The notes beneath the pieces are model-generated. The model ran no database searches and was not told where the DNA came from. It was given only the letters and a program-made list of their open reading frames with translations. Shown piece by piece: positions 144-12,847 of a DNA stretch of 64,000 nt (positions within the stretch are counted from its first letter, which is position 1; each line of letters starts with the position of its first letter). Position numbers and translations under genes: made by a program. Source of the stretch: Alteromonas aestuariivivens (GTDB lineage: Bacteria > Pseudomonadota > Gammaproteobacteria > Enterobacterales > Alteromonadaceae); assembly GCF_003367475.1 (NCBI RefSeq), contig NZ_QRHA01000013.1, positions 1 to 64,000 on the forward strand, read 5' to 3'.

Positions 144-623
144 ATGAAGCATATTTTAATAATATTAACCTTACTCGGAGTAATTACGATGGCTCAAGCC
201 GAAGATACATGGACTGTTGGTAAAATGAATATCAAGGGTAAGCCTGTTATTTATAAATTCATGAGTCAGCTACCCGATATCACTATTCAAAAGAAGTTAC
301 CTTGGTTAACTGTAATATCATGGAAATATGATGGTTCAACTAATAACGGGATGCCTATTACTTCCGAAAATGAACAAATGATAGCACTGGAAGATGGTCT
401 TGAAGAAATTAGTGGCGAAGAAAGTATTTATTTACCTGCCTATACCGCAACGGGTAATGATTTAAAGGAGTTTGTTTTTTATATTTCAGATAGAGAGGCT
501 TTTATCAATAATTTAAATAAATCTTTATCTTCACACTCAAGTTACCCGATTGAAATTAATTTTTATAAAGATGAAGAGTGGTCTGATTTAACTAAGCTTT
601 TAGAGGATTTTAAAGGCAGCTAA
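144..623 (+). CDS. Secreted DUF695-like protein in integron cassette
   Basis: This 159-residue protein has a clear N-terminal signal peptide: a basic MKH start, a hydrophobic stretch, and a likely cut after the AQA at about residue 19. The rest resembles the DUF695 family, with a W-x-Y segment, a GMP stretch, an acidic LEDGLEE stretch and a TGNDLKEFVFYISD block. The function of DUF695 is unknown. The gene is AT-richer than the core genes downstream. It starts 13 bases after attC 1, and its TAA stop lies inside the R'' core of attC 2, as is normal for a mobile cassette. No strong ribosome binding site is visible. It was probably acquired through the integron. Confidence 0.75.
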   Translation: MKHILIILTLLGVITMAQAEDTWTVGKMNIKGKPVIYKFMSQLPDITIQKKLPWLTVISWKYDGSTNNGMPITSENEQMIALEDGLEEISGEESIYLPAYTATGNDLKEFVFYISDREAFINNLNKSLSSHSSYPIEINFYKDEEWSDLTKLLEDFKGS

Positions 624-721
624 CAAGCCGCTCTAGAGTGACAATGAACTACGGTTGGTGTTCTTGTCGCTAGCTCCAAATTTAACACCAACCAACATTG
701 CTCCTAAGCGGAGCGTTAGCT
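618..721 (+). repeat. Integron attC site 2
   Basis: The R'' core AGCTAAC (618-624) and R' core GTTAGCT (715-721) are exact reverse complements. Inside them, GGTTGGTGTT (653-662) and AACACCAACC (684-693) make a perfect 10-base stem. This site separates the DUF695 and LysE cassettes. Confidence 0.9.
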
Positions 722-757
722 GCCGTTTAGTATTTGTTCTTTTTTCGGAGATTTGAA

Positions 758-1396
758 ATGGATTTAAACAATATTCTTACGTTTATCGCTGTTGCAACGT
801 TGCTCGTAATTTCTCCTGGCCCTAATGGGTTTCTTATCGCCAAAACAGTACCTCTATCTGGACATCGCGCGGGTCTAGCCAATGTCGCAGGCTTTGTGGC
901 TGCTTTCTACGTCCATGGCACGCTATCAATATTTGGCATATCTATTCTAATAGTACAGTCTGCAAACGCCTTTTTTGTTTTTAAAATGCTGGGTGCTACT
1001 TATTTAATATGGCTGGGCGTAAAGGCGCTCAGAAACGCTGTTAGTCAAAATTCAGTTACACATAATTCAGAACCGGAGTTGCAACAAAAAACAGTCTCTA
1101 CAAAAGGTGCGTTCTTTGAAGGCTTTTTAACTAATACTCTTAACCCAAAAGTGTCCATATTCTATCTCGCTGCTTTTCCGCAATTCATGCCCATAGATGG
1201 CAGCGCATTCAGCGCGTATTCTCTTGTTACGGCACACTCAATAGTTAATGTTGTATGGTTTTCAGCAATGGTATTCACTCTTGCTAAGGTTAAAAGTGCA
1301 ACTAACCACCCTAAATTCAAAGTTTGGTTAAACTCAGTTACAGGTGTTGTATTTATTGGGTTTGGCACTAAATTGGCATTTGCGAAGAGCAGCTAA
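758..1396 (+). CDS. LysE/RhtB family amino-acid exporter in integron cassette
   Basis: This 212-residue inner-membrane protein belongs to the LysE/RhtB/threonine-efflux family. It has the typical N-terminal signature SPGPNGFLIAKTVPLSGHRAG and about six hydrophobic segments, at the normal family length of 200-215. The substrate cannot be told from sequence; amino acids or homoserine lactones are usual. The start at 758 was chosen because GGAG lies 7 bases upstream; an upstream in-frame start at 734 would add a basic stretch not usual in the family. The TAA stop (1394-1396) overlaps the R'' core of the next attC. The group II intron insertion point falls between its second and third bases, and the intron end supplies an A, so the stop is kept. 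Confidence 0.85.
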   Translation: MDLNNILTFIAVATLLVISPGPNGFLIAKTVPLSGHRAGLANVAGFVAAFYVHGTLSIFGISILIVQSANAFFVFKMLGATYLIWLGVKALRNAVSQNSVTHNSEPELQQKTVSTKGAFFEGFLTNTLNPKVSIFYLAAFPQFMPIDGSAFSAYSLVTAHSIVNVVWFSAMVFTLAKVKSATNHPKFKVWLNSVTGVVFIGFGTKLAFAKSS

Positions 1397-1432
1397 TCGG
1401 GTAGCCGGAGGTATCTAGCCTCCAGCCCCCAC

Positions 1433-1464
1433 AACACCCTGCATGCGGCTCCGCACAGGGCGTT
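1433..1464 (-). ncRNA. Group II intron domain V (catalytic hairpin)
   Basis: On the minus strand the 32 bases starting AACGCCCTG and ending CAGGGTGTT fold into a 9-bp lower stem, a 2-base bulge (TG) and an upper stem TGCG/CGCA with loop GAGC. The lower stem carries CGC, the catalytic triad form of group IIC rather than AGC. It begins right after the reverse transcriptase stop codon. A second hairpin, GGAGG/CCTCC (1407-1423), fits domain VI. Confidence 0.7.
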
Positions 1465-2799
1465 TCATTTAGGATAGTGAAGCGCAATCCATCCATCACG
1501 TAGTGAGTAAAGCCCTTCGGATTTTAGGTAATCAAGAGATAACGCTTGATTGATCCCAGGGGATTTCGCACTTCGCCATGGCCCTTTGCTGGTGATACCA
1601 CACGCCACCGCAGCTTGAACATGCACGCCCAGTCTCATTAAGTTTCGTACCTTGGTGCGCGGCTTTCGCCACTGACGCCAGTAAGCCATTCGCACTCTGC
1701 GCCGGATCCAGTGATCCAGTTCTACACAGCGTTGATAGCCACTGGCGATACCAAAGTAATTTATCCAGCCTCGTAAATCCTGACTGAGTTTAAAGAGTTG
1801 GTAATGCATCGATACGCCCCAGTTGCGATTCGTTAACCGTCGAACCTGCTGTTTAAACTTCATCAGGGTCTTCAGGTGCCATTGAATGCGTCCTGCCTTG
1901 AAGGTGAATCCAAGGAATTTGCTTTCACTGGTTTTAACGACGTGGCTTTTGGTTGTATTAACAACCAACTTCAAGCGGTGACTCAGGAATCTGCTAATAC
2001 TATTGAGCACGCGTTCACCCGAACGGGGCGTCTTTACCAGTATGGTAAAATCATCCGCATATCGGGCAAATTTGTGACCCCGTTTCTCAAGCTCTTTGTC
2101 TAACGGGTCGAGCATGATGTTTGCCAACAGCGGCGATAATGGCCCGCCCTGAGGGACACCTTCTCGACTCTCACTATAAAACTGGTTATCGATAACCCCA
2201 GCTCGTAAGTAACGTTTAATCAGTTTAAGCAATCGCTTATCTTTCACTTTATAGCCAAGGTAGGTCATGAGTAAATCGTGATTAACGCGGTCAAAGAACT
2301 TAGACAGATCAACATCCACGGCAAAACGGCGTCCCGTTTTGATAATGCTGTTTACCTGCTTCACGGCTTGCTGCCCATTTCGATTTGGCCTGAACCCAAA
2401 GCTATTATCTGAGAAGGTTGGGTCGAAAATAGGCGTAAGGACTTGAGCAATCGCTTGTTGAATCACACGATCAACGATAGTTGGGATCCCTAATTGACGT
2501 TTTCCGCCATCAGGTTTATCAATCTCAACGCGTTTCACCGGTGAAGGTTGGTATTGGTCTGAGCGAAGCTCAGCCATAATACGTTTCCAGTTTCCGGCGT
2601 TTGCCCAAGCGGGGAAGTCATCAATGGTCATGCCATCAATGCCAGCTGCCCCTTTATTGGCTCGAACCTGTTTCCAGGCCGCCACAATATTGGAAGGCTG
2701 GAGAATAAGTTCGAGTAGATCTGCACTAAAGGCTGGCTGCTCATCACTACGCTGAGTCACGTCATTACCGGGCGGCATTCGTGTATTCAAGTCTGACAA
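1465..2799 (-). CDS. ltrA: Group II intron reverse transcriptase/maturase
   Basis: This 444-residue intron-encoded protein splices and retrotransposes its host intron. The N-terminal third carries RT blocks (ANKGAAGIDGMTIDDF, KRQLGIPTIVDRVIQQA, FGFRPNRNGQQAV). The catalytic YADD motif is in KFARYADDFTILVKTP. The thumb/maturase region follows, with WINYFGIASGYQRC and an RRRVRMAYWRQWRKPRTK block. It ends after the X domain with no HNH endonuclease, as expected of class C introns. The proposed start is TTG, preceded by a strong AGGAGG; an ATG seven codons further in is the alternative. The reading frame is intact, so the protein may be functional. Confidence 0.95.
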   Translation of the reverse strand: MSDLNTRMPPGNDVTQRSDEQPAFSADLLELILQPSNIVAAWKQVRANKGAAGIDGMTIDDFPAWANAGNWKRIMAELRSDQYQPSPVKRVEIDKPDGGKRQLGIPTIVDRVIQQAIAQVLTPIFDPTFSDNSFGFRPNRNGQQAVKQVNSIIKTGRRFAVDVDLSKFFDRVNHDLLMTYLGYKVKDKRLLKLIKRYLRAGVIDNQFYSESREGVPQGGPLSPLLANIMLDPLDKELEKRGHKFARYADDFTILVKTPRSGERVLNSISRFLSHRLKLVVNTTKSHVVKTSESKFLGFTFKAGRIQWHLKTLMKFKQQVRRLTNRNWGVSMHYQLFKLSQDLRGWINYFGIASGYQRCVELDHWIRRRVRMAYWRQWRKPRTKVRNLMRLGVHVQAAVACGITSKGPWRSAKSPGINQALSLDYLKSEGLYSLRDGWIALHYPK

Positions 2800-3316
2800 G
2801 GCTCCTCCTTTGTTCTAAATGTTCCGGCCTTGGCCGTGTCCCAGCCATTATGCTGGGCATTTGGCTACTATGCCGTCTGCTGACTTCTGCTTTATCACCG
2901 CCACAGTCGCCTGAGACAGCGCTATCGGTTTGCATCAAGTTCGCTCGCAGTGGATGATGCGTTTCCTCTGCGCCAAGGCACTTGTATACCAGAGCCTCAC
3001 TGGTGTTTACCGATCGCTCGTAAAGCAGATCTCCCCAGATAAGAGCATGCACTGTCTCTGCACTGCTGCATCATTTACGGTGGCCGTTAGATCACATGGT
3101 TTCGTTGTCTTGTGCCAACTCACCTTCAGCCTACGCCTCATATGATGTTCTTGTTCATCAGCTCGCAGATTTGCTAGCGGCTTCCTCCAGACTATCTCTC
3201 ACGATTTAGCCCTTGCCATTCGCTAGTAGTTAGCGTTGAATAACAAAGTGTTAAACAACGGTGATCTTCCTACAGAGGACTTTCACCTCATTAGTTCATG
3301 CCCATGCTGGGCGTAC

Positions 3317-3371
3317 ACAAGGCCAGTCAGCATCGCCCACTGCGTGGGCTGGACAGCTTGCGGCGTTGATA
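3317..3371 (+). repeat. Right part of the intron-interrupted attC (degenerate)
   Basis: Joined to 1389-1395, this restores GCAGCTAACAAGG, an R'' core. The sequence continues with a GCCCA/TGGGC hairpin and a CTTG that can pair with CAAG. The expected R' core is poor: only GTTGAT at 3365-3370. Either the site has decayed or its right half was replaced by the neighbouring IS110 sequence. Confidence 0.45.
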
Positions 3372-3635: not shown

Positions 3636-4589
3636 TTACTCCTGAACCGGCCCCATTTCAGGGTCAAATCGTTGCGCGATGTCCCAGCTATACCCTAGCA
3701 GTTCTCTCGCTACCGCCGTGACTACTTTGTTGTATTCCTTACCTCGCGCCTTAAGCGCAGCAAAGCGTCGGCACAACCGCATCTGGGCTTCCCAACTCCG
3801 ATTCTGCAAACCCACCGAATGCTCCTGCTGGCGTTTCTGCATTTCCAGCGAAACCTTGGGGGCATGACGGTAAGCCCAGGCCGCTTAAATCAGAATACGT
3901 CGTGCATGGGTGTTGCCGCACTTGGTAATGCCGCCTTGTTGTTGGCGAGCGCCACTGGAATACTCGCTGGGCGTCAGCCCTACAAAATTCATCAGGCTGC
4001 GCGGGTTGCTGAACCGGCGCAAATCCCCCAATTCTGCCACCAGAGTAACGGCGGATAAAAAACGAATACCCCGAAGTACAGTGAGCCACTGCACCAATGG
4101 ATACCAGCACCACGCCTCGGTTACCACGTTCAATTCCAGTTCGATGTGCTGCAACCGCTCATGCCGCTCTGTCACTGTGTGGATGTAGTGCTGAAAGGTG
4201 ATTTTCTTGGCCGGCTGTAAAAAGTGGATGTCGGCCAGGTGGCGTTTGTACGCCTCATTCCAATTCTGCCTTCCGGAGCACGGGTGACCATTGCGAAGCA
4301 GAAAAGATTTTAGTCGCTGACGGGCCTGACGAAGGTCGAGCATGGCATCTTCCCTTGCACGAATGAGGTCTCGGATGGCCCGTTTCTCCTTCGGATAGAC
4401 ATAGGCCAGGGGAGAGTTGCCACCCCGGATGAGTTTGGCAATTTTGTAAGCATCAATCTAATCGTTCTTGGTTTTGCCACCGTGAATGGCTTTCATATAC
4501 AACGCATGACCCAGAATACAGACTTACAACAGTCTTGCGTGCAGATCGATACCGCAGTAAAACGGATGTAAATTGGTATGGAATTGCAT
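3636..4589 (-). pseudogene. IS110-family transposase, inactivated
   Basis: One frame of 318 codons can be followed from ATG at 4589 to 3636. It begins FYCGIDLHARLL, which carries the first DEDD aspartate, and passes GHALYMKAIHGGKTKND. The C-terminal transposase_20-like region has LTVLRGIRFLSAVTLVAEL, FVGLTPSEYSSG and GGITKCGNTHARRILI. It is broken by TAA after HARLL, TAG after GKTKND and TAA at 3885-3887 after RRILI. About 50 residues usual between the N-terminal block and GHALYMKAIHGG are missing. The N- and C-terminal halves look like two different IS110 subtypes. No intact element ends were identified. Confidence 0.8.
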
Positions 4590-4674
4590 TGAGCCTAGTC
4601 CTTTTTGGTTTCGTCACATTCCAGCTTAGCCAGTTGGCTTCGCTGGGGGGAGAAGGCTCAATCAGTATCAATGC

Positions 4675-4843: not shown

Positions 4844-5098
4844 ATGAGAATCGTCTCTTTTACCGAAGCTCGAAATGGCCTTAAAGCTGTTTTAGACAAT
4901 GTAATTAACGATGCGGATACTACTATAATCACTCGTCGTGACTCTGAAGATGCTGTTGTGATGTCATTGGATTATTACAACAGCCTTATGGAAACCGTTC
5001 ATTTACTTCGTTCGCCAGCGAACGCTGAACACTTGAATCGTTCAATCGCACAGTTTAAAGCGGGTAAAACGACTCAGCGAGAACTTATTGATGAGTAA
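4844..5098 (+). CDS. yefM: Antitoxin YefM (Phd/YefM family)
   Basis: This 84-residue antitoxin neutralises the YoeB toxin and represses the operon. It has the Phd/YefM fold: an MRIVSFTEARNGLKAVLDNV DNA-binding N-terminus, an ITRRDSEDAVVMSLDYYNSL block and a YefM-type LLRSPANAEHL segment before the toxin-binding tail. The start at 4844 was chosen because it gives the family-standard N-terminus; the longer frame from 4799 would run over the promoter. The stop overlaps the toxin start (ATGAGTAA), indicating translational coupling. The pair sits in an integron array, where toxin-antitoxin cassettes are thought to stabilise arrays. Confidence 0.93.
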   Translation: MRIVSFTEARNGLKAVLDNVINDADTTIITRRDSEDAVVMSLDYYNSLMETVHLLRSPANAEHLNRSIAQFKAGKTTQRELIDE

Positions 5099-5354
5099 CA
5101 GGTTGTTATCATGGACTGATGAAGCCTGGAATAGTTACGTTTATTGGCAGACTCAAGACAAGAAAACCTTAAAACGAATCAACAAACTAATTACCGATGT
5201 TCTGCGTTCTCCGTTTGATGGAATTGGAAAGCCTGAACCTCTTAAAGAAAACCTTTCCGGCTTCTGGTCTCGCAGAATAGATGATACCAATCGTTTAGTA
5301 TACGCCGTGGATGATGCGGCAATTACTTTTATCTCCTGTCGTTACCATTACTAG
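5091..5354 (+). CDS. yoeB: Toxin YoeB, ribosome-dependent mRNA interferase
   Basis: This 87-residue RelE-superfamily toxin cleaves mRNA in the ribosomal A site. Family features are the start LLSWTDEAWNSYVYWQ, KRINKLITDVLRSPFDGIGKPEPL, then LSGFWSRRIDDTNRLVYAV and the C-terminal CRYHY, with catalytic Glu, Arg, His and Tyr positions present by inspection. The length is normal (84-88). The ATG at 5091 overlaps the antitoxin stop by 8 bases. The toxin looks intact, so the antitoxin must be active for the cell to live. Confidence 0.93.
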   Translation: MSNRLLSWTDEAWNSYVYWQTQDKKTLKRINKLITDVLRSPFDGIGKPEPLKENLSGFWSRRIDDTNRLVYAVDDAAITFISCRYHY

Positions 5355-6118: not shown

Positions 6119-7810
6119 TCACACTGTAAAAATGCCCATTTCATGGTTAAGCGCATTTACATTGCTCTTTAAGTTTTTCCCGGTTTTGGCAACCACGGTC
6201 ATTTCTTCCTCAGTATCTCCAGTCAGCTTAGATAAATCGTGCAAGCTTCTGTTCAGGTCTTCTGTAACACTGGTTTGTTGGGAAGCAGCGGTTGCTACCA
6301 CTGCGTTAACTTCATTGATCTCTTTAATTGAATTGTTCACTCGTTCCAAAGCGGTTTTAGAGTCTTCGGCAACTGCCTGGGCCTGTTCACTTGTTTTTCT
6401 GCTGACTTCCATCGCACTCACAACGTTACGGGCACCTGACTGCAACCGTTCAATCATTGTACGAATTTCTTCAGTACTGTTTTGCGTGCGGCTTGCCAGT
6501 GTTCTGACCTCGTCCGCTACAACCGCAAACCCCCGCCCCTGCTCTCCGGCTCGTGCAGCCTCTATTGCAGCGTTCAGAGCAAGCAGGTTGGTTTGTTCCG
6601 CAATTTGCTGTATCACTTCCAGCACACCGCTTATCCCGTCAGTTTCCCGCTCCAGCTCATTCATCGCATCAGATGACTTGTTAATATCCTGATTGAGGTC
6701 TTCCAGTTTTCTTACGGCTTCCGTTAATGCCTGTGAAGTATTCAGTGCTTCCTGACTTGCTTCATTCGCAGCATTGGCTGCCTTATTCCCGTTATTAGTG
6801 ATTTCCTGGGCACTTGCTACCATTTCATAAATCACCTGGCTCAAATGCTCAGTTTTAATCTTCTGCTCAGCCGCTAACTGCAGGCTCTTTTGCGAGGAAT
6901 GATCCAATTGCAACGTAGCATCATTGATCACATTCGCCTCGTTGCTCACAGTCATTACAATTTTTCTGATTTTTTCGGAAAAGTCATTAAAGGATTTTGC
7001 GCTCAAGCCCACTTCGTCATCAGACTCTATCTTCAACCTGTGAGTTAAATCGCCCTCACCATGCGCAATATCCTGCAGCGCAGTATTCATATTTGCGAGA
7101 GGTACTAAGGCTTTTCGGATGAAAATAAAACTAAAAACCCAGGACAAAGCTAAAATAATCAGGCTCAGTGATACGGTTTTCGTCATCAGCCGGCTGATCA
7201 TCATATCGAAGGTGTTCACATTTTTGGCGATGGTTTGCTCAATATCGTCAATGAAGTAACCCGTGCCCAGCAACCAGTCATAGCCGGGTATGTTTGCAGC
7301 ATAAGCCAGCTTGGGCGCTTGTTCAGCGTCACCTAACTTTTTGAATGCTGAATAGTGAACATAACCACCACCTTGTTTCGCCACTTTAACCATTTCATCC
7401 AGTGGATGGGGTTTGCCATTCAGGTTACTGCGATTAATGTTTAGCTTTTCAATCGGCTTAGGGCCAACGCGACCATTGGCAATACCATACAAATCGTAGC
7501 TATTGATAAAGAAATAGGTGCCATCGCCATATTTAAAATCAAAGACAAAATCCCTGATTGCCTGATCGCGTTGCTCGGAAGGCGGCTGATTTAGAGTCTC
7601 CTTCATGGCAGAAAGCGCTAGCAATACCAGAGCCTTAAGTTCATCTTTTTTTTGCTGGAGCAACGATGCGCGCTCTGTCTCAATTTGCTTTTGCTTGAGG
7701 GATTCCAGCTCAGTTACAGTACTCCAGCTCAAACCAACCGAGATAACAATCAACGGGATAGCCGATATCAAAATTAATCGGTTTCTTAACAGCTTCAACT
7801 TTCCAAACAT
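6119..7810 (-). CDS. Methyl-accepting chemotaxis protein with Cache sensor
   Basis: A 563-residue chemoreceptor. A transmembrane helix near residues 8-28 is followed by a periplasmic single-Cache-type sensor to about residue 190 ([31 protein letters not shown]). A second helix at about 207-230 leads to HAMP and then the cytoplasmic signalling hairpin with [20 protein letters not shown]. It should feed the CheW/CheA pathway; the ligand is unknown, though such domains often bind small organic acids. The ATG at 7810 has GGAG six bases before it, which favours it over an upstream TTG. No terminal CheR-binding pentapeptide is visible. Its 3' end abuts the integron's terminal attC fragment. Confidence 0.93.
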
Positions 7811-8003
7811 GGATAACTCCAAAACAAACCCATGCCAACATTGTTATTCGGTTCGACTAACAACTGACTTACTGAAAATCCCTTTAACCAAATTATCCCT
7901 AATCCAAAGTACCACCCCCAGAATATAACAATTCTTTTACAAAACCAATCAAAATAGTCAAGCGTTTAAGCCAAGATCAATCATTTTAAATCCAATGCAG
8001 AGG

Positions 8004-8450
8004 CTATCTGAAATACGCCTTGGTGTGCTCGTGCACATCATCGGCTTCGAGCAGCTCATCAATTGGCATCCACCGGTAGTCCGAATGCTGTTCCAACGGT
8101 AACTCGCTGACCGATTCAAGCTTCAGGCTATAGGCGATGGCAACATAGTGGGTGGATACTTCCTCATTAAAAACGCAATCCGCGTAAAAGTGGTCGTACA
8201 CTCCGAGCAGCGACGCACCCGATATTTCCAAAGTCTGACCCACTTCTGCCTGGGTAAGGCGCTTGAAGGCTTGCTTTAAAGGTTCATTCTTGTAAATTCT
8301 GCCACCGGGTACAAACCAATAGCCCTGGGCAGGCCTGTTCACTCGTTTGCCAAGCAGAACAAAGTCATTGCGGTTTCGAATTACAAGATCAATTGAAACC
8401 AGCGGTGTACTTTCCAGCACGTCAATAAATCGCTGTTTATCCAGAAACAT
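8004..8450 (-). CDS. gmm: GDP-mannose mannosyl hydrolase (Nudix)
   Basis: This 148-residue Nudix enzyme resembles Gmm/NudD, which hydrolyses GDP-mannose or GDP-glucose to GDP and the sugar. It has the subfamily start FLDKQRFIDVLESTPLVSID and the modified Nudix box GGRIYKNEPLKQAFKRLTQA. This box lacks one usual glutamate, as in true GDP-mannose hydrolases, which work by a different base mechanism. The start at 8450 was chosen for a GGAGAG ribosome site and the family N-terminus; the longer frame to 8564 adds an unrelated leader. No capsule or GDP-mannose gene cluster is nearby, so it probably tunes sugar nucleotide pools. Confidence 0.85.
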   Translation of the reverse strand: MFLDKQRFIDVLESTPLVSIDLVIRNRNDFVLLGKRVNRPAQGYWFVPGGRIYKNEPLKQAFKRLTQAEVGQTLEISGASLLGVYDHFYADCVFNEEVSTHYVAIAYSLKLESVSELPLEQHSDYRWMPIDELLEADDVHEHTKAYFR

Positions 8451-8711
8451 AGCTCTCTCCAAAATCCCTATTAAAGACAACAGACTAGCAAACTTCGGTT
8501 GGTAATTGAAAACCTGGATAGCGAAATGCTCTGTAATGTTGACGCGCTTTGAAACTGAAACCAAATCTTGATGATAGTGAATGAAAAAGTTGCCTCCACT
8601 TATATTATTATATTAATGTAGAGAGAAACATAATTTTAACAAACTGTGCACTGCCCTACCAAGATGTAGTTCACGCCGCCGTCTGCGAAGTAACCAGCAC
8701 GAGGTAAGAAT

Positions 8712-10739
8712 ATGAAGTTACTCAATAATATAAAAATAAGGCACCGCATCCTGATACTTGCTGCGCTGCCTACGCTGATCATATTGATCAACTCCATCAT
8801 TGAGCTTCGTGCACTTTCCGAACAACAGGCAGTGCTAAAGTCAATGACCAATATCATGTCATTGTCCACCGAAACTCAAATGCTCGCCGCCCAGGTACAG
8901 TATGAGCGAGACCTGACTTACGGCTATTCCAGCGGCCAGCCCATGTTCGCCGCCGCCTCAAAATACGAGGCACGACTAAATAGGCAGCGCAATGCGACCG
9001 ATCGCGCAATCCTAGCGTTCAAGGAATTCGTGAGTTTACATCAGGAAGAGTTGGATGAAGCGGGTTTGGCTAACAAAATCAATACGCTTTTCGAAGCTTT
9101 TGATGATCTAACGCCTGCACGTGAGGTGTTTAACAATCATGAAATCAAAGATGGTAGCGGGTGGTTTGCCATAAATGGGTACCAACAGATTCTCGGGGTT
9201 GCACAACGGATCCACGAGGAAGTGGTAAGAATTGCCTCTGCCAATAAAGAGCTTACCCTGCTTAGCAACGCCTTCGCCATCATTGCGCAAATGCAGGTAG
9301 AGTACGCCAATGAGCGGGGCCTGGGAATTCGTGCCCTGGATCGTCCGAATATCGATTACCAGCGTTACTGGCGGGTAAAAGCCAGCGGTTCAGTCAGCAT
9401 AAAACTGGAAGAACAGTTTCGCGCATTCATAGACCCTGAATTTACCGAGTATTTCAACGCGCAGCACCTGAATAGCGAAATTCGAAAACAAATCAACGAT
9501 TTTCGTAACCGCTTCACAACTTCAGGCGGTAAGCAGGTATCAGAAACACCGGAACAGTGGTTCGAAATGGCAACTCAGCATATGAAGTCACTGCACCAGG
9601 TTGAGGAAAAGCTGGTAGAGAAAATCAATCAGCAAACCGCATCACTGATGCAACAGGCCAACAACAATTATCTTTGGCGCCTTATTCTTATTGCGCTGAC
9701 CCTTGGGCTGATTGTTTTAATCTCAGTCGCCATCATTCGTTCCATTATCATTCCGCTCAGGAGCTTTGTTACTTCCTTTGAGACCATTGCTGAACAAAAA
9801 GACGTCACTCACCGCTTTTCGATCACCAGCAATGACGAGCTATCTGATGTGGGGCGCGCATTTAATCGGTTGCAAGACAGTTTTAACGGCGCATTGCAGG
9901 GCGTTACAACACAAAGCCAGCGTATGCGGGCACTCACTGAAGAAGTGGCTCAGGCAATGAATAACAGCGAGACACTGGCCAACAACCAAAACAATGCCAC
10001 TGACAGCGTCTCCGTTGCCATGAATGAAATGACCACAACCATCAATGATGTTGCCAGGACCGCTCAGGAAACCGCTGGCATTGTCCAGCGCGCCCATGAT
10101 CTTTCACTCAAGAGTACCCAGAGTGCGAATTCCAGCAAAGTCATCATGCAAAAGCTCACGGATGAACTAGCCAAGACTCAAAGCCAGGTTGATGAGTTAA
10201 ACGCCCATAGCGCTTCCATCGGGAATGTGCTCAATGTCATTCAGGCCATAGCCGAGCAAACCAATTTGCTTGCGCTGAACGCTGCAATAGAGGCTGCCCG
10301 CGCCGGGGAGCAGGGGCGGGGGTTTGCGGTGGTCGCCGATGAAGTACGAAGCCTGGCCAGCCGAACCCAGGAAAGCACCGAACAGATTCGCGGTCAGATT
10401 GAAACGCTTCAAAATGGCTCTGCACGGGCAACCGAGAGCATGCAGCGTTTGCAGGCGCAAGGCTCTGAAACCATCAACGCGGTGCACGAAAGTGTGGACG
10501 CATTCAAGGTATTACAGCAGGAGCTCGATGCCATCATGAACATTTCCACTCAAATCGCCACTGCATCAGAACAGCAGTCCCAGGTTGCCAATGAGGTCAA
10601 TCGCCAGGTTTGTGCAATAAAAGAAGACGCCAACAACATGAACAGCCATATTCATCGCACCGCCAGTGCCAGCAAGGAACTGGACAACACCGGAACGGAA
10701 TTGAACCAGTATGTATCAGCGTTCAAAATATCGGCTTAA
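8712..10739 (+). CDS. Methyl-accepting chemotaxis protein with NIT-type sensor
   Basis: A 675-residue chemoreceptor. Helix 1 is near residues 13-30 and helix 2 near residues 322-343. The large periplasmic part between them is helical, with a [12 protein letters not shown] segment like the nitrate/nitrite-sensing NIT domain family. HAMP follows ([18 protein letters not shown]), then the signalling domain with the conserved tip [20 protein letters not shown]. The start is supported by GAGGTAAG just upstream. It is convergent with a similar receptor, and the two share size and architecture, so they may be old duplicates with different ligands. The true ligand is unknown. Confidence 0.9.
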
Positions 10740-10754
10740 AAGAAAATTGTATCA

Positions 10755-10782
10755 CCTCGCCCCTCGTTCTTGAGAGGCGAGG
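10755..10782. terminator. Hairpin between convergent chemoreceptor genes
   Basis: CCTCGCC (10755-10761) pairs with GGCGAGG (10776-10782), and an inner CTC/GAG extends the stem. It lies between two convergent stop codons. No strong T-run follows on either strand, so termination is inferred from position. Confidence 0.55.
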
Positions 10783-10789
10783 TTCCCCT

Positions 10790-12847
10790 TCAGTTAAAGT
10801 GGAACACCGAGATATTTTCCATTAACACATCGCCATTGTTGGTCAGAATCTTTATGGAAGACAGAGTCTCGCTGCCTTGTTTGTACATCACATCAGAGTC
10901 GTCTTTAATAGCATGTATGCGCTGGTTGATTTCGTCGGCCACATTGGTTTGCTGTTGGGCCGCCACTGCGATTTGACCGGACATATCGGTGATTTGATCA
11001 AGTTCAGATTTCATGACCGCAAACGCATTGGTGCTGCGCTCGACAATCTCTGCAGTTGCCTGCCCGGATGTTTGCAGTGAGTTCACTTTATTGCTTGCCA
11101 TAGAAGCGCCGTTGATCAGGGTTTCTATCTGCACCTGTATTTGCTCGGTAGACTCCTGGGTGCGCTTGGATAAATTCCGCACTTCATCGGCGACCACCGC
11201 AAACCCCCGCCCCTGCTCCCCGGCGCGGGCAGCCTCTATTGCGGCGTTCAGGGCTAGCAAGTTGGTTTGTTCAGATATTCCCTTGATAACCTGAAGAATA
11301 TTGCTGATCTGGCCGGCCTCATCATTCAGATTGGAGACCAATTCGTTAGTTTCACCCAATTCTGCAATCAACCCATCAATGGATTGCTTGGTTTTCAGCG
11401 CATCACCCTCGCCGGACACGGAAAGGTCGTACACACGCTGCACCGTATCGGAGGTTGCCGACGCCATTTTGGCCACTTCGTGAATGGTGGAGGTCATCTC
11501 GTTCACTGCGACAGAAATATTGTCGGTTGACTCTCTCTGCTTATTTATCAACGTCATTGAGTCGCTCATAGAGCGGGATACACCTTTGGATACGCTGTCC
11601 AGTGACACGATTTTTTCCCGCACGCTGGATAACGTCTGCTCAAACGTTGTGATCAGGGAGTTAAAGGCATGCCCAACCAGACTGAGTTCGTTGGTGCCTT
11701 CAATACGGCTGCGCAATGTCATGTCTTTGGTTTCGGCCAGCTTTTTGAAATCATTCATCAGCATACTGAGTGGCAAATTAATACTGACGATGATTTTGTA
11801 GGATATCAGTAGAATGCCCGCTAACAATAAAGCCATCATAATCAGAATGTTATAGACCTGCTGCTGTGCATCTTCGACCTGCGCGTTTTTGATCGCGTCA
11901 AAGTTGTCGAGTGCGTGATCCAGCACGCGCTCGTAACCCGCCCCCAGTTGCCGGCCAACATCCAGCCACTCGGCTTTTACAATGCCCACATCCTTACTCA
12001 CATAATCGCTGGGCTTGCGCCTGAGATCCTCGTAGGTTTTGCGCGCAAATTTGTAGAATTCCTGGTTGGTAAGGTTTGCACCGAGGTAATTCACCATGTC
12101 TTCAGATGAAAAACGCCGGTAGTTGTCCAGAAAGGTTTCTTCCATCGCGGAACGCTTCATTACATCGCTGTAGGCACTGACATGCAGGGGTTCCTCTATT
12201 CCACGGTACAGCGCACTGAAAGCCAGCAATGCATTATCCTGGGCGTAGATCAGGTTTTTGAAGGCGTTGGCGGGCAAAGAAAGGTGTTCATTTTTGGCCG
12301 CCAACAGCACCACCTGGTTCATACTTTGAACCAGGCCTTCAGAGATATTCTGGAATGACAATTTGGTCCAGGTATAGGCACCGTTGCTTTCATCTTCGTT
12401 TCTAATTCTTTTCAGGCGCCGATCCGCCAGCCCCCTGACAAACGGCAGTCTGTCCAGCACCTCATTGATATTCTTAATATCGTCTGCCAGTTGAGGAAAT
12501 TCTGAATACTGGGAATCATCCCGGGTAAATTCAACAAAGGCGCTTATGGCCTTATCAACCGCCGGGCGCTTTTCCTGCATATCCGATTTAAACTCCATCC
12601 CGACCGGATCTTCCGGATTGCCAGGCCCAAGATACATTTTGGTATACAGCAGTTCCTGTTGAATTGCTGACAATAAAGGCGTGGCGGTGTACACGTACTG
12701 CTGAAGAAATTCCATGTCTTCTGCACGGTTAAGCTCTTCGCGGGCGTCATTCAATTTCTCCAGAGCCAGCAATGACGCAGCCAGCACAGGAATGGTGACC
12801 AGCAACAATATGCGCGTTTTTATGTTGACCCGGTTGATTACATTCAT
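10790..12847 (-). CDS. Methyl-accepting chemotaxis protein, large periplasmic sensor
   Basis: A 685-residue chemoreceptor. Helix 1 is at about residues 11-28 and helix 2 at about 333-355. The roughly 300-residue helical periplasmic part has blocks such as [14 protein letters not shown] and YIFAQDN-like repeats of the NIT-type class, but the match is looser than in the neighbouring receptor. HAMP and the signalling domain follow, with [20 protein letters not shown] at the tip. The gene is convergent with the previous receptor. The protein is probably inner-membrane, at the cell pole. The ligand is unknown, and no chemotaxis kinase or adaptor genes are in the window. Confidence 0.9.

Follow-up and report, generated by a model that had tools for sequence, protein, structure and literature searches.

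Integron biology has long asked how genes become linked to attC sites, and the locus described here poses the question in a concrete form. In Alteromonas aestuariivivens, a LysE-family cassette gene is followed by a group IIC-attC intron and then by the remainder of an attC site: do the sequences on the two sides of the intron have a common origin? We analysed a window of 64,000 nt (contig NZ_QRHA01000013.1, positions 1 to 64,000), to which coordinates refer unless another contig is named.

A full-length group IIC-attC intron with base-exact ends

The intron spans positions 1396-3316 on the minus strand and is full-length (1921 nt), with coordinates exact to the base. Read on that strand, the 5' exon ends with ...GGCCTTGT (from 3317 upward), the intron runs from GTACG (3316) to CCGAT (1396) and the 3' exon begins with TAGCTGC (1395 downward), which places the insertion point at CTTGT^TAGC in the attC R'' core. 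A preliminary description, made from the sequence alone, had put CTTGT before and TAGCTGC after the intron on the minus strand, and its coordinates proved right to the base.

The same description had proposed a search with intron covariance models, and three Rfam group II models indeed match the minus strand at the gathering threshold: RF02001 (group-II-D1D4-3, 132.3 bits, 3044-3208), covering the domain I region of the ribozyme, RF01998 (group-II-D1D4-1, 58.7 bits, 2826-2921), covering the ribozyme region ahead of the open reading frame, and RF00029 (domains V and VI, 48.2 bits, 1396-1465), which stops exactly at the proposed intron 3' end. A putative domain V CGC triad can be read by eye on top of the RF00029 covariance match. 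The final five bases of the 5' exon form IBS1 (CTTGT, 3317-3321, minus strand), with which a candidate EBS1 (ACAAG, 3109-3113, minus strand) is predicted to pair, as read from the sequence; the first base of the 3' exon (T, 1395, minus strand) is IBS3. Across 49 aligned full-length introns, 42 have the candidate EBS1 element GGCACAAGAC without any change; no EBS3 was located.

To these data we added a comparison of ends among relatives. From 140 relatives in a protein-guided scan of genome contigs we kept the 80 best loci, and together with the window these gave 81 sequences in which the 5' end could be read in 65, the 3' end in 70 and both in 55. Within this set of the best 80 of 140 relatives plus the window, the intron starts with GTACG in 64/65 cases and ends with CCGAT in 67/70 (the remainder being CAGAT, TCGAT and CTGAT), so that all 70 readable 3' ends, the window's included, are GAT; the 5' exon closes with CTTGT in 32 of 65 and with TTTGT in 21 of 65. 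Alignment of the relatives thus puts both ends where the preliminary description had drawn them. Three introns on integron-bearing plasmids (L108-L110) have the same GTACG and CCGAT ends. We considered GTACG as an unusual 5' end, since it departs from GUGYG (PMC4424553), and dropped the idea in view of the 64/65 count and the three plasmid introns. Two further loci are internally deleted relics, L117 (G020:C10), matching intron positions 1-30, 34-483 and 1851-1921, and L118 (G017:C15), matching 70-483 and 1874-1921; the protein-coding part is absent from the matches of both.

An intact maturase in a recently mobile lineage

The intron encodes a 444-aa reverse transcriptase/maturase (1465-2799, minus strand) with a TTG start after GGAGGAG. 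The protein matches TIGR04416 at 408.9 bits (cut-off 300) and contains the Pfam domains RVT_1 and GIIM, with no endonuclease domain among its Pfam matches; a YADD motif is read in the reverse transcriptase, and residues 28-439 align with the GsI-IIC reverse transcriptase at 442 bits. Its dN/dS lies between 0.05 and 0.12 against 10 relatives, three of which are identical copies, two of the original 12 having been skipped for gaps. Judged by these comparisons, the RT/maturase is intact, as proposed earlier, and under purifying selection. With both ends, three Rfam group II regions and this protein in place, the description of a complete element also holds.

In a protein tree, the bootstrap of which is not fully settled and which was built from a set lacking labelled class C reference rows, the window sequence groups with five others, four of them from Alteromonadaceae (100/99), inside a 54-member group that holds the plasmid introns L108-L110 and is separated from three outgroup sequences at 100/100. 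The introns nearest to the window copy are 96.7% identical to it and have different flanks, and in one Paraglaciecola genome three separate sites carry copies that are identical over 1920 nt, while a fourth copy has 26 differences. These observations support the view that the intron lineage has been mobile recently. In Zhongshania marina, four contigs (L049-L052) each end within one intron, identical over 1678 nt, at four sites, which appears to be another sign of recent mobility in addition to an assembly break.

The window intron itself is probably mobile, and its lineage suggests that this group IIC-attC copy may splice and retromobilize. That it is instead a dead, immobile relic seems very unlikely to us: it is the sole copy found in the assembly (3.85 Mb, 35 contigs), and a simple scan detected no sigma-70-like promoter reading out of the intron, where shuffled sequences are expected to give 2.3, but its 444-aa frame is open and under purifying selection, its ends and domains are complete and copies elsewhere are 96.7% identical. 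An outward promoter, which we had also considered for the window copy but did not find in this simple scan, has been reported for several group IIC-attC introns (PMC8876359).

The intron splits the R'' core of an attC site

Joined across the intron, the flanks form an attC of 60 nt, AGCTAAC-AAG-GCCAG ... CTTGC-GGC-GTTGATA. On the plus strand, the outer part of R'' (AGCTA, 1391-1395) is split from AC at 3317-3318, and the remainder (3317-3371) continues with the spacer AAG, L'' (GCCAG, 3322-3326), L' (CTTGC, 3357-3361), the spacer GGC and R' (GTTGATA, 3365-3371). This attC is imperfect (L box 4/5, R' 5/7); when its flank is shuffled, a partner as good turns up in about 1% of cases. Two other genomes of the genus contain the stretch that begins at 3362, preceded there by different sequence (G020, 97% over 32 nt; G070, 86% over 50 nt), which supports the position of the R' junction independently.

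We applied a box-and-spacer attC test to the loci whose 5' end could be read; 58 of the 65 qualified, the remaining ones having too little flank or a junction lacking AC. A canonical attC partner is found at 34/58 junctions, the window included, against 1.4 expected from shuffles, and one with a perfect L box at 26/58 against 0.1 expected; the window is among the weaker of the 58. Free folding, in which AAC-GTT hairpins beat all 20 shuffles in 29/58 loci (with 4 more of 62 without GTT), was rejected as an attC test and replaced by the box-and-spacer test, since its choice at the window intron was a hairpin of 158 nt and not the 60-nt attC. Unanchored hits of a loose attC scanner (L box 4/5 allowed) were likewise discarded, as shuffled sequence gives 7.6 of them per 10 kb per strand.

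The same genome provides a natural empty site. C23:88287-88928 encodes, without an intron, a LysE protein 96% identical to that of the window; window positions 715-1396 match C23 at 93.5% identity, and the match ends at the intron. C23 then carries on as TAACAAACAACTG..., and where the match stops the twin continues TAACAAAC, its R'' core uninterrupted. Because the twin reads through, the insertion can be placed within the R'' core, after TA and before AC. The proposal of an exact seat in an attC is borne out, since the flanks join into an R'' core and the empty-site twin supports the break point, and so is the group IIC-attC identity, for which the ribozyme, the class C protein and a TTGT/T bottom-strand R'' seat against the direction of the cassettes are all present.

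The insertion rebuilds the stop codon of the upstream gene

The LysE-family exporter gene (758-1396, plus strand; LysE Pfam, 111 bits) ends in TAA at 1394-1396, the third A of which comes from the terminal base of the intron. With the intron in place, the opposite strand reads TAA at 61 of 69 junctions (CAA at 4, GAA at 4), a count that includes the window and leaves out one of 70 junctions for its short flank. In 25 of the 61 this TAA closes, in frame, an open reading frame that is 60 codons or longer; in the other two frames such a reading frame ends there in 3 and 1. Given a TTGT^TA target and an intron ending in GAT, a TA^A stop always stays TAA. Stop preservation is therefore general, mechanical and common in this clade. 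The preliminary description was right that the stop is preserved and that its third A is supplied by the intron; the target and the intron end make this automatic, not special, and they explain it without the special adaptation that we had also considered.

The surrounding cassette array

Upstream of the LysE gene lies a DUF695 cassette gene (144-623, plus strand) with a canonical attC (618-721, plus strand; L box 5/5). Near the start of C12 an intact integron integrase is encoded (1347-2288); a canonical attC separates it from the contig start, and array sequence runs toward this same end of C12; we infer that C12 is linked to C5, a join that is not assembled. Five more canonical attC sites are clustered on C23, and an integrase was found in 56/59 genomes of the genus at the threshold used. 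An integrase at the start of C12 and array sequence running toward that end of the contig agree with the sedentary-type array that had been suggested.

Several neighbouring features were recorded. Downstream of the intron-split attC, between attC-like sequences, lies a remnant of an IS110/IS1111-type transposase on the minus strand (3885-4343; with flanks, about 3640-4600), with stops in the surrounding frame, a match to NF033542 of 94.4 bits (below the cut-off of 140) and Transposase_20 in Pfam. A YefM-YoeB-type toxin-antitoxin pair (4844-5354) occupies the distal end of the cassette array, the end of which is adjoined by three long open reading frames (6119-12847) that read like methyl-accepting chemotaxis proteins. 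Elsewhere in the genome of the window (L105, G000:C3, about 109711-111620), two reverse transcriptase genes lie side by side, one scoring 316 bits against Drt3a and the other, over the part available, 390.6 bits against Drt3b, both above the cut-offs, a pair corresponding to a DRT3-type antiphage system.

Different attC sequences follow the LysE gene and its twin

In the window the intron is followed by ACAAGGCCAGTCAGC..., whereas the sequence in the LysE twin is ACAAACAACTGTAGC..., and the two attC sites have lengths of 60 nt and 116 nt. Their identity over 70 nt is 0.61; as a yardstick, an attC half set against intron sequence gave 0.47-0.63 in that comparison. The attC half behind the intron thus differs from the attC of the twin, a point absent from the preliminary description, and the two flanks of the window intron may stem from different attCs.

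Among 54 intron junctions queried, three have near-identical intron-free twins: the LysE window, L015 and L005. The gene at L015 is 90-96% identical to nine places, that at L005 98% identical to its twin over 226 nt, and in both cases a different attC stands behind the intron. Twins that were the intron-bearing copy itself were left out of the family tests, and the three LysE twins are one place under three locus ids. Over the 25 nt after ACAA, a measure picked, like the 0.7 cut-off, after a first look at the attC comparisons, 3/3 intron families differ against 2/24 intron-free control families (Fisher p = 0.0034), or against 3/24 when the worst control pair is taken (p = 0.0068); control families were required to have a perfect L box, and for two of them, 127 and 215, it is doubtful that they are genuine cassettes. 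By the 70-nt measure the three intron families score 0.61-0.67, and the outcome depends on the cut-off: p = 0.0068 with the best and 0.019 with the worst control pair at 0.68-0.70, 0.029 and 0.056 at 0.75-0.80, and 0.21 and 0.31 at 0.64.

Gene pairs defined by attC sites were also counted. At 90% gene identity or more, 15 of 16 pairs share their attC at 80% or more and the last does so at 79%, and below 90%, 2 of 5 keep an attC identity of at least 0.8. One intron-free pair has a gene identity of 86.8% and an attC identity of 0.44. By the 70-nt measure, 14 of 44 control pairs score less than 0.8, a count that includes the pair from the window itself. The nine L015 twins (L057, L118, L004, L185, L205, L215, L217, L220 and L239) carry one gene at 90-96% identity with several clearly different attC starts, including where the intron is absent. 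Similar attC halves behind introns that follow different genes (L046/L047, L015/L058) were set aside as proof of exchange, because one attC type serves several genes.

The comparisons, made on a small test set, are suggestive of an excess of attC mismatch next to introns. This mismatch fits, and weakly favours, the proposal of Leon and Roy in which introns connect a gene with a different attC site. A literature search, mostly at the level of titles and abstract openings, turned up no comparison of attCs between twin cassettes that do and do not carry such an intron.

Discussion

The window intron is, on well-supported grounds, a new member of the group IIC-attC family, in which an exact seat and a preserved stop are ordinary. 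The TTGT/T target and the orientation of this family are described in the accessible parts of PMC7923331, PMC8876359 and PMC4424553. Like S.ma.I2 and its relatives, the window intron targets TTGT/T in R'' on the attC bottom strand, lies against the cassettes, encodes a class C maturase without an endonuclease and has the GTACG and CCGAT ends of L108-L110; unlike them, it resides in a chromosomal Alteromonas array, with the stop codon rebuilt at its junction and behind it an attC unlike that of the gene's twin. It shares a class C protein, a ribozyme and an inverted repeat at the insertion site with the terminator-targeting group IIC introns of PMC4424553, which in the available text hit a terminator, whereas its own target is an attC.

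We lean slightly toward a history in which the intron inserted by reverse splicing and the difference between gene and attC arose by recombination between intron copies. The intron, with its own maturase/RT, would have reverse-spliced at TTGT^T in R'', on the bottom strand of a hairpin formed by the attC, as its family and anatomy suggest. Its terminal T and the TTGT^TA target together rebuild the R''-overlapping TAA, as seen at the junction, and leave the LysE gene on the other strand whole, while the insertion separates the gene from the attC. If two copies of the intron stood as direct repeats at consecutive attC sites, homologous recombination between them would then remove the intervening cassettes, leaving the gene, an intron and another attC. 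Against such an exchange counts that a second copy, the recombination partner, was not found in the assembly. The weakness of the attC, the dependence of the family result on measure and cut-off, and the attC differences seen where introns are absent also speak against it.

A less probable course, which nonetheless has a considerable share of our credence, is plain insertion into the LysE cassette's own attC, with the attC of the C23 twin changed or acquired separately and the intron uninvolved. No ancestor polarises the two LysE cassettes; the nearest relative of the gene outside the genome (G015, 80% nucleotide identity) has by eye no attC after its stop, and intron-free attC differences do occur, in 2-3 of 24 control families and more by the 70-nt measure. 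According to PMC3053210, Leon and Roy saw no relationship between the gene of a cassette and the attC that it carries, and S.ma.I2 is described in PMC8876359 as splitting a gene from its cognate attC. Plain insertion would nevertheless need the same coincidence in all three intron families with twins. We regard it as unlikely that the integron integrase, acting at R'' and not R', or short-homology recombination through the AACAA core made the exchange and the intron came later. The host genome does encode an intact integrase, and where attCs differ in the absence of an intron the break again falls at R'', in a search that required matches reaching R''. Cleavage at R'' is not the usual reaction of an integron integrase, and such a course leaves the excess next to introns, if real, unexplained.

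Recombination between intron copies, the course that we favour, is close to the model of Leon and Roy. According to the accessible text of PMC3053210, introns there target the terminator of a gene and an isolated attC separately; recombination between the introns brings gene and attC together, and splicing and reverse transcription follow. A gene, an intron and an attC of other origin correspond to the intermediate predicted in the portions of PMC3053210 and PMC7923331 at hand. That model, as set out there, begins with a terminator-bearing gene and an attC standing alone, whereas the twin of the window gene is already a cassette, so that the window would represent an exchange and not a first acquisition. 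That the window is a snapshot of intron-mediated joining, in which introns in successive attC sites recombine and give a gene a foreign attC while its stop codon stays whole, and splicing with reverse transcription could yield a scarless cassette, is a tentative reading that we consider rather doubtful.

The rebuilding of the stop codon by introns of this clade suggests why the upstream gene tolerates such insertions. A gene that has one attC in one array and that elsewhere in the same genome precedes an intron and another attC makes the intron-joining model directly testable. If that model is true, group IIC-attC introns would drive the reassortment of attC sites in environmental integrons.
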